64,000 nucleotides of DNA from Pseudomonadota bacterium (GTDB lineage: Bacteria; Myxococcota_A; Bradymonadia; Bradymonadales; GCA-2716585). The DNA lies in NCBI GenBank assembly GCA_005804885.1, contig SYOX01000130.1, positions 1 through 64,000 of the forward strand. Reading direction: 5' to 3'. The position numbers were made by a program, and so were the translations under genes. The notes below the pieces were generated by a model that saw only the letters and a program-made list of their open reading frames with translations, was not told the DNA's origin and searched no databases. Below are positions 53,872 to 55,804 of this stretch, piece after piece (the stretch's first letter is position 1; every line of letters begins with the position of its first letter).

Positions 53872-53901
53872 TTGACTTCGGGGGAGGGCTGACCATATAA
53901 A
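53872..53901 (+). promoter_or_regulatory. Strong sigma70-like promoter (TTGACT-N18-TATAAA)
   Basis: TTGACT at 53872-53877, TATAAA at 53896-53901, in an AT-rich patch. Confidence 0.7.
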
Positions 53902-53969
53902 AGGGGCGCTGGAGACAGGAGGCTTTCCTGGGGCTGGCGCAGACATCAAGAGATAAGGGTAATCAGGAA

Positions 53970-54140
53970 ATGAAGCGCTCAAACCACAACTCCTTCACTC
54001 AGACCGCCACGGGATCCGTGGTCGTGTCGGGGTGCGCCACGAACGCCAATCCGGCGACCGTCGGCGCGGCAGGTTGTGGAAATACGGCGATCGGCTTTAC
54101 CGATCGTCGACACGGCCTCCGGAGGGGCCTCGAACCTTAG
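53970..54140 (+). CDS. Candidate 56-aa small protein
   Basis: MKRSNHNSFTQTATGSVVVSGCATNANPATVGAAGCGNTAIGFTDRRHGLRRGLEP, placed between a strong promoter and a perfect terminator; AAGGG upstream. Confidence 0.4.
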   Translation: MKRSNHNSFTQTATGSVVVSGCATNANPATVGAAGCGNTAIGFTDRRHGLRRGLEP

Positions 54141-54166
54141 CAGGGTTCGGGGAGAGTCACCCAACG

Positions 54167-54206
54167 GAGGCCGGGTTCCAACAAGGAATCCGGCCTCTCT
54201 TTTTTC
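54167..54206 (+). terminator. Strong intrinsic terminator
   Basis: GAGGCCGGGTTCC AACAA GGAATCCGGCCTC TCTTTTTT, near-perfect 13-bp stem. Confidence 0.92.
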
Positions 54207-54477
54207 GCGGCGAGCCCCGCAGCTACGGGGCTCCATCACGCAGGAGCGCGCTCGTGGACAGATCAAGGAGCAAGGATCAAGGCCAAGGCCATCAAGCCGG
54301 CCTGAGCACTCACCCCAAGGGTGGGCGTCGAGGTACATCCTCGACCGCCGCACACCTCAAGGGCGCGGCGAGCTCCTTTATCTTCAATACCGCGGCGGCC
54401 TGTCTCGGTCGCACGACCAAGGACGCCGGAGCCTGGCGTGGGGGAGGATGAACTCGACTTCATCAACCAACCCCCAG

Positions 54478-54508
54478 ACCAGGCGATAAAATCGACCTGG
54501 TTTTTTGT
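54478..54508 (+). terminator. Second intrinsic terminator
   Basis: CCAGGCGAT AAA ATCGACCTGG TTTTTT (one bulged base), directly upstream of the tRNA array. Confidence 0.8.
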
Positions 54509-54611: not shown

Positions 54612-54684
54612 TCCGGGGTAGCACAACTGGCAGTGCACGCGGCTGTTAACCGCGGCGTTGTGGGTTCGAACCCCACCCCCGGAG
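54612..54684 (+). tRNA. tRNA-Asn(GTT)
   Basis: TCCGGGG-TA-GCAC..GTGC-A-CGCGG-CTGTTAA-CCGCG-..-GTGGG-TTCGAAC-CCCAC-CCCCGGA-G; clean cloverleaf. Confidence 0.93.
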
Positions 54685-54741
54685 CTTCGCCCGCGACGAT
54701 CGGCTGGTCGTCGCGGGCGACGCGGCCCTGACCGGCCGCAC

Positions 54742-54813
54742 GCGGTAGAAGTGTTGATGGTGGCATGTGAGCGTCCCATGCTCTCGGGGCCGGTTCGATC
54801 CCGGTCTACCGCT
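54742..54813 (+). tRNA. Divergent tRNA-Gly(CCC)
   Basis: GCGGTAG/CTACCGC acceptor, loop GTCCCAT, CCGG-TTCGATC-CCGG T-arm, U73; imperfect anticodon stem, A at position 8. Confidence 0.6.
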
Positions 54814-54927
54814 TGGCGGCTCCCCTTGATCCGGGGGGAGTCGCCGAAGAGCGCCTCATCAGGGCCGTAAACCCCGATGCGGGCTCAGGATTCGTCAGGC
54901 AGGCGCGCCCTCGGCGCGCGGGCCCGA

Positions 54928-55014
54928 CGACCTCAAGCCGTCCTGGTGAAACTGGCGATCACGGTCGGTTGAAGCCCGGCAGGTCCCTGTTCAAGTCAGG
55001 GGGACGGCGCTGCG
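54928..55014 (+). repeat. 87-bp exact direct repeat, copy 1
   Basis: cgacctcaagccgtcctgg...gggacggcgctgcg identical to 55508-55594. Confidence 0.95.
54937..55009 (+). tRNA. tRNA-Phe(GAA)-like, copy 1
   Basis: GCCGTCC/GGACGGC acceptor, GTG..CAC D-arm, GTCGG-TTGAAGC-CCGGC anticodon arm, CCCTG-TTCAAGT-CAGGG T-arm; G73. Confidence 0.75.
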
Positions 55015-55093
55015 TCAGCGCGGCCAGGAGTGAGCGAGACGTCCGGCGGATGGGACGTCAAGATCGCCTCTCCTGGCCACGCTGACCCTCTCT

Positions 55094-55162
55094 GGCTGTA
55101 TGTCCTGGGGACGGCGCGGTCTGCAAAACCGCGTGTGCGGAGTTCGACTCTCCGTGCAGCCT
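55094..55162 (+). tRNA. tRNA-Cys(GCA)
   Basis: GGCTGTA/TGCAGCC acceptor, GCGGT-CTGCAAA-ACCGC, CGGAG-TTCGACT-CTCCG, U73; short D-arm. Confidence 0.85.
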
Positions 55163-55220
55163 CTTCGACCTGGGCGCGCTCTGCGCCCCAGGCCGACGCT
55201 CTGGCCAGCTCAAGGTCAGC

Positions 55221-55292
55221 GCGAGCGTAGTTCAGCGGTAGAACACCTGGTTGCCATCCAGGAGGTCACGGGTTCGATCCCCGTCGTTCGCT
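55221..55292 (+). tRNA. tRNA-Gly(GCC)
   Basis: GCGAGCG-TA-GTTC..GAAC-A-CCTGG-TTGCCAT-CCAGG-..-ACGGG-TTCGATC-CCCGT-CGTTCGC-T. Confidence 0.93.
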
Positions 55293-55320
55293 TCCGGGCG
55301 CCCCGCGCGCCCGATCCTGT

Positions 55321-55392
55321 GCGGTAGAAGTGTTGTGGGTTGCACTGGAGTCTTCCAAACTCCTGGAGCCGGTTCGAATCCGGTCTACCGCT
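55321..55392 (+). tRNA. Divergent tRNA-Gly(TCC)
   Basis: GCGGTAG/CTACCGC, GGAGT-CTTCCAA-ACTCC, CCGG-TTCGAAT-CCGG, U73; A at position 8. Confidence 0.8.
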
Positions 55393-55507
55393 TGGCCGCG
55401 ATCCCACCTCGTGGGGCCGTCGCCAGAAGGTCGCGCGATCGCAAGGTCGCGCGGCGCAAGAAGATTCGTCCTCCCCCTGGGCGCCCCGTGGTGCCCTCGG
55501 CGTCGGG

Positions 55508-55594
55508 CGACCTCAAGCCGTCCTGGTGAAACTGGCGATCACGGTCGGTTGAAGCCCGGCAGGTCCCTGTTCAAGTCAGGGGGACGGCGCTGCG
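55508..55594 (+). repeat. 87-bp exact direct repeat, copy 2
   Basis: Identical to 54928-55014. Confidence 0.95.
55517..55589 (+). tRNA. tRNA-Phe(GAA)-like, copy 2
   Basis: Identical in sequence to copy 1. Confidence 0.75.
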
Positions 55595-55621
55595 CGTCGG
55601 CGGTCACGTCGGCGCGTTCAT

Positions 55622-55693
55622 GGGCCTGTGGTGACAACGGGATCACGCCGCTCTTGCAAAGCGGAGGTCGGGGTTCGACTCCCCGCAGGTCCA
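55622..55693 (+). tRNA. tRNA-Ala(TGC)
   Basis: GGGCCTG/CAGGTCC acceptor containing G3:U70, CCGCT-CTTGCAA-AGCGG, CGGGG-TTCGACT-CCCCG, A73. Confidence 0.9.
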
Positions 55694-55732
55694 CTGCCAG
55701 GGCGAGGTCTCTCAAGATCGCGCACTGGCTTC

Positions 55733-55804
55733 GCCGGTATAGCTCAAGCGGCAGAGCGCCCGCCTCGTAACCGGGTAATGGGGGTTCGATTCCCTCTATC
55801 GGCT
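55733..55804 (+). tRNA. tRNA-Thr(CGT)
   Basis: GCCGGTA/TATCGGC acceptor, GCTC..GAGC, CCCGC-CTCGTAA-CCGGG (one mismatch), GGGGG-TTCGATT-CCCTC. Confidence 0.82.

Follow-up and report, generated by a model that had tools for sequence, protein, structure and literature searches.

Amino-acid operon attenuators of the trp, his and pheST type consist of a codon-rich leader open reading frame (ORF), an intrinsic terminator and an alternative antiterminator, with ribosome stalling as the sensor. The trn operon of Anabaena sp. PCC 7120 comprises 26 tRNAs on the delta plasmid under the repressor TrcR, and is reported to be silent and to be induced under translational stress (PMC10272220). Bacterial tRNA array units, in the Tran/Morgado definition, hold at least 20 tRNA genes at a density of at least 2 per kb (PMC5966550). 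Broken tRNAs are sensed by RtcR, a sigma-54 activator that controls the RNA repair operon of Salmonella (PMC7790460), and one paper speculates about a riboswitch ahead of a tRNA operon in Bacillus subtilis (PMC4448311). Here, we describe an array of nine tRNA genes in a 64,000-nucleotide window (the whole stretch of DNA analysed; positions 1 to 64,000 of contig SYOX01000130.1, assembly GCA_005804885.1), whose anatomy leads us to read it, with a probability of about 0.8, as an accessory tRNA operon under ribosome-mediated transcription attenuation.

Leader ORF, terminator and predicted antiterminator are arranged in the window as in attenuators of the trp, his and pheST type, but what would be regulated here is a group of tRNAs, a single leader represents as many as six amino acids, and two attenuators stand in series. 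The array resembles the Anabaena trn operon as a redundant tRNA operon held on top of housekeeping genes; there, however, a protein repressor acts at the promoter and 26 tRNAs lie on the delta plasmid, whereas the window anatomy suggests cis-acting leader peptides that match the array's own amino acids, and the nine genes have no mobile genes in their scanned flanks (PMC10272220). In Mycobacterium, phages and Acidithiobacillus, array units likewise pack redundant and divergent tRNA genes closely together (PMC5966550, PMC12803027); a text search of both papers found no leader-peptide wording. Against the Tran/Morgado definition, the window array has at least 2 genes per kb (9 in 1.2 kb) but nine genes rather than at least 20. 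The Salmonella RtcR operon responds to tRNA breakage, as the window array may do, and RtcR also occurs in the family of the window, but that operon repairs tRNAs under sigma-54, whereas a sigma-70-type promoter and putative leader attenuators precede the window array (PMC7790460).

The nine genes (54612-55804, all plus strand) were called by ARAGORN exactly as the first-pass annotation had given them in number, order, strand and anticodon. They are tRNA-Asn(GTT) (54612..54685), tRNA-Gly(CCC) (54742..54813), a tRNA-Phe(GAA)-like gene (54937..55010), tRNA-Cys(GCA) with a reduced D-arm (55094..55163), tRNA-Gly(GCC) (55221..55292), tRNA-Gly(TCC) (55321..55392), a second tRNA-Phe(GAA)-like gene (55517..55590), tRNA-Ala(TGC) (55622..55694) and tRNA-Thr(CGT) (55733..55804). 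Rfam tRNA scores ran from 34.2 bits (Gly CCC) to a maximum of 69.4 bits (Gly GCC), and the sole Rfam match of the Cys gene was to tRNA-Sec, below the cut-off. The two Phe-like copies show 100% identity across 87 nt. The Gly(CCC) and Gly(TCC) genes have a common body (78% identical), and each carries A8 and U14, a reversal of the usual U8-A14 pair; these unusual bodies with A8 had been pointed out beforehand, as had the G3:U70 pair visible in tRNA-Ala. Also present, as claimed, are two hairpin spacers without a T run on the plus strand, one at 54684..54723 (arms 54684-54699/54708-54723) and one with 17-nt arms at 55014..55086 (arms 55014-55030/55070-55086), each 94% complementary. No genes intervene within the array, as annotated, but the functional unit does not begin with the first tRNA gene; it begins approximately 740 nt upstream, at 53872.

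The host genome (G000; 9.86 Mb, 428 contigs, 83.6% complete, 6.6% contamination) has a total of approximately 81 tRNA genes. Canonical Asn(GTT), Gly(CCC), Gly(GCC), Phe(GAA), Cys(GCA) and Thr(CGT) genes are present elsewhere in G000, and the array tRNAs are only 42-69% identical to their housekeeping counterparts (for isoacceptors with such a copy found); the array is thus accessory, and the earlier suggestion of a non-housekeeping or specialised set is borne out by separate canonical genes for six isoacceptors and by the divergence of the array copies. Housekeeping Gly(TCC) and Ala(TGC) genes were not found elsewhere in the ~84%-complete assembly, which may be a result of its incompleteness. 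An ordinary housekeeping tRNA operon was ruled out by this redundancy and divergence, the array copies of six isoacceptors not being the sole ones in the genome.

Upstream of the array lies a leader region (53872-54507, plus strand) that was absent from the first-pass annotation and consists of a promoter and two tandem units of ORF plus terminator. The putative sigma-70-type promoter (53872..53901; TTGACT-18 nt-TATAAA) was read from the sequence and did not appear in the output of a stricter consensus scan. In leader ORF 1 (53970..54140; 56 codons; MKRSNHNSFTQTATGSVVVSGCATNANPATVGAAGCGNTAIGFTDRRHGLRRGLEP), N, G, F, C, A and T (NGFCAT) make up 31 of 55 residues against 17.3 expected, which places the set at rank 43 of 38,760; the ORF was recovered in a blind scan and is followed by intrinsic terminator 1 (54166..54205; 14-bp stem with T run; -27.2 kcal/mol). 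Leader ORF 2 (54254..54451; GTG start, 65 codons, start uncertain) is a weaker match, since 32 of its 64 residues belong to the set and the rank is 888 of 38,760; it precedes intrinsic terminator 2 (54477..54507; -13.4 kcal/mol). Each ORF stops 25 nt before its own terminator, and the terminators separate the ORFs from the tRNA genes. The amino acids enriched in the leader peptides are exactly the six of the array.

An orthologous array occurs in a second genome of the same family (G002), with the order Asn-Cys-Gly(GCC)-Gly(CCC)-Phe-Phe-Ala-Ala-Thr and an upstream promoter of identical layout (TTGACA-18 nt-TATAAA); a class-wide search of 57 genomes found window-type arrays in these two genomes only. 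Orthologous array tRNAs are 72-89% identical. Among 165 stem pairs compared, 128 were unchanged, 20 differed at both positions, 13 differed at one, and 4 were broken, which indicates selection on the tRNA folds. Upstream of the leaders, G000 and G002 both have a DNA topoisomerase gene in divergent orientation (proteins 64% identical), with one dehydrogenase gene in between in the window. A Pfam scan of 10 flanking proteins found no integrase, phage or conjugation genes; the flanks are ordinary and housekeeping-like. The suggested link to mobile DNA therefore found no support, and a mobile or prophage origin was rejected on the flanking genes and the topoisomerase neighbour common to both genomes.

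Two leader-plus-terminator units also precede the G002 array, and 40 of 53 and 52 of 70 of their residues fall in the NGFCAT set (ranks 4 and 3 of 38,760 six-residue sets), far stronger matches than those of the window leaders; the NGFCAT peptides of G000 and G002 have composition in common, but not sequence. The correspondence extends to arrays with other amino acids. The leader of a Leu, Tyr and Ser array on contig C215 of G000, the end of which overlaps the start of contig C84, is MNVNTSLSLSSLRSSSSLLSSLYSGVCAPEVAT (18 of 32 residues L, S or Y; rank 17 of 1,140), that of a Ser, Leu and Tyr array in G002 (C278) is MFTLSSSSLLSLSSSSLLSSLYLGTCMPEEVRARSV (21 of 35 in set; rank 5 of 1,140), and that of a Ser, Leu and Asn array in G003 (C32) is MLSSSHNNMANLSSSLRNRMALSLNSLSMLLLSAESRMR (25 of 38 in set; rank 2 of 1,140). 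In the G003 array an Asn gene replaces the Tyr gene of the other L/S arrays, and its leader is accordingly N-rich. Composition thus matched array content in seven units from five arrays and three genomes (z 3.2-7.7), and in cross-scoring the NGFCAT leaders were negative for LSY and the L/S leaders negative for NGFCAT. All seven leaders stop 25-37 nt before a strong terminator, and none of the leader ORF peptides had a Pfam match. Because the L/S leaders in G000 and in G002 are related to each other, the seven units do not count as that many independent events. Much of the NGFCAT signal comes from N and C, since Ala and Gly are common in the GC-rich G000 genome. Rare codons were dropped as specific proof; non-array codons are likewise rare in the window leaders.

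The leaders were initially spotted by eye, and the blind scan was a retest with thresholds set afterwards: it took any ORF of 25-72 codons stopping 15-45 nt before a strong terminator at 95 tRNA clusters (31 with at least 3 genes), and six of the seven leader units were its top hits. The low score of the C215 unit had two causes: ARAGORN missed its Ser genes or they lie on C84, and the scan took a longer start. Searched phylum-wide, the leaders gave E values below 0.01 only in G000 and G002; weaker look-alikes of the LSY leader elsewhere in the phylum had no adjoining tRNAs. Other accessory arrays inspected in the family had no convincing leader. Separately, a leader-like ORF (MRHNSLQTAVTISSSAASKAAALCGDTPNADGAMPT) and a terminator precede a single tRNA-Asn gene in G004 (C568, L129:1770-2089), a locus that may be the window array in reduced form.

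In all seven units, the stretch with the best complementarity to the 5' arm of the terminator fell between -36 and +11 of the ORF stop (tail-shuffle P values of 0.035, 0.008, 0.098, 0.001, 0.011, 0.109 and 0.028). In the window, the predicted antiterminator segments are on the plus strand at 54104..54121 in the tail of leader 1 (pairing with the 5' arm of terminator 1 at -20.9 kcal/mol; P 0.035) and at 54431..54448 in the tail of leader 2 (duplex of -15.1 kcal/mol; P 0.008), and the modelled antiterminators enclose a small hairpin. Under equilibrium folding, even a stalled ribosome left the terminator dominant in most units; equilibrium folding was therefore ruled out as the switch, and a co-transcriptional comparison was used instead. 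Since the terminator is favoured at thermodynamic equilibrium, any switching must be kinetic. With the ribosome stalled upstream and the 3' arm not yet made, predicted sequestration of the 5' arm was 0.64-0.87; with the ribosome at the stop, it was predicted at 25-42%, and at 59% in window unit 1. That unit is the least clear switch of the seven: its antiterminator segment is 19-36 nt short of the stop and would not clearly be masked by a ribosome at the stop. Window leader 2 is the weakest of the seven in composition.

We infer that the leader ORFs are translated and that switching takes place in the cell. Polymerase starting at the upstream promoter would transcribe the two leader ORFs, each followed by its intrinsic terminator. 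As long as translation of Asn, Gly, Phe, Cys, Ala and Thr codons runs normally, ribosomes would reach the end of the ORF and block the antiterminator, the terminators would form and the array would be silent. Were any of the six charged tRNAs to run short, the ribosome would stall in the leader, the ORF tail would pair with the 5' arm of the terminator, and readthrough would allow expression of nine redundant tRNA genes for those same amino acids; two attenuators in series would make silencing tight. Because extra tRNAs would not cure amino-acid starvation, depletion or cleavage of housekeeping tRNAs is the likelier trigger, and we put roughly even odds on tRNA damage or depletion, not starvation, being what the leaders sense.

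Three other explanations were weighed. The short ORFs might make real (e.g., secreted or modified) peptides, with the array supplying tRNAs for their odd composition. The agreement of peptide composition with array content in both kinds of array would fit this, but terminators stand between the ORFs and the tRNAs, the G000 and G002 peptides are alike in composition and not in sequence and have no Pfam match, and the ORF tails are complementary to a terminator arm; we consider real peptides quite unlikely. Chance or drift in GC-rich DNA, with the array a constitutive or decaying accessory cluster, would account for the weak window leader 2 (rank 888) and gains from the frequency of Ala and Gly in G000. 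Against it stand array-specific composition in seven units, five arrays and three genomes, the recovery of the leaders in the blind scan, and the conserved tRNA stems, which together make a chance match very unlikely.

It is likewise highly improbable that the array is a mobile or prophage-borne counter-defence against tRNA-cleaving systems, with its regulation incidental: such a role has been proposed for phage and mycobacterial tRNA arrays (PMC10264068, PMC12803027), but here the flanks are housekeeping-like and the topoisomerase neighbour is common with G002. A counter-cleavage role is in itself compatible with attenuation, which we retain as the preferred explanation of the array.

A sigma-54-like motif (TGGCACG-N5-TGC), often preceded by TTATC-type repeats, stands a short way ahead of several of the family's accessory arrays that have no leader: in G000 on contigs C20 (L036), C175 (L035), C300 (L038), C307 (L033) and C336 (L032), and among relatives in G001 (C9, C340, C256), G002 (C392) and G003 (C19, C85). 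The motif occurs 37 times in G000 (10 times for the reversed control), with 5 occurrences before tRNA arrays. RtcR was present in five of five family members examined and possibly controls the arrays with this motif. At G003 C85, a terminator follows the motif without a convincing leader. Further oddities were seen among accessory loci. On G000 C65 (566-717 and 21191-21357; L039, L040), four tRNA genes have nearly the same body but differ in anticodon (Trp, Met, Ser and Cys); the Ser-anticodon gene is without a long variable arm. Genes at L035:1794-1931, L036, L196 and L198 have variable-region inserts of approximately 45-70 nt, some with a common CCTACAAGCAT motif, and these inserts had no Rfam intron match at E 0.01. 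An HNH-endonuclease-like ORF (no Pfam match) lies between Tyr and Ser genes on C215 (L034), beside an isolated tRNA 3' half.

Text searches confined to an open-access library found no tRNA operon with leader-peptide control, so that priority is unproven. If the reading is true, we know of no tRNA operon controlled by leader-peptide attenuation before this one. Tentatively, and at somewhat less than even odds, we suggest that the family keeps a second, divergent tRNA set in amino-acid modules that would be silent until needed, some switched by a module-matched leader peptide and others through sigma-54, possibly with RtcR, when tRNAs are broken, which together would form a tRNA-replacement stress or immune system. 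The purpose of redundant bacterial tRNA arrays is an open question, and the regulatory region of the window appears to name the signal: failed translation of the array's own amino acids. If this is true, the purpose of the array becomes a simple reporter question, and the finding suggests a means for the cell to survive the loss of housekeeping tRNAs, e.g., to tRNA-cleaving enzymes.
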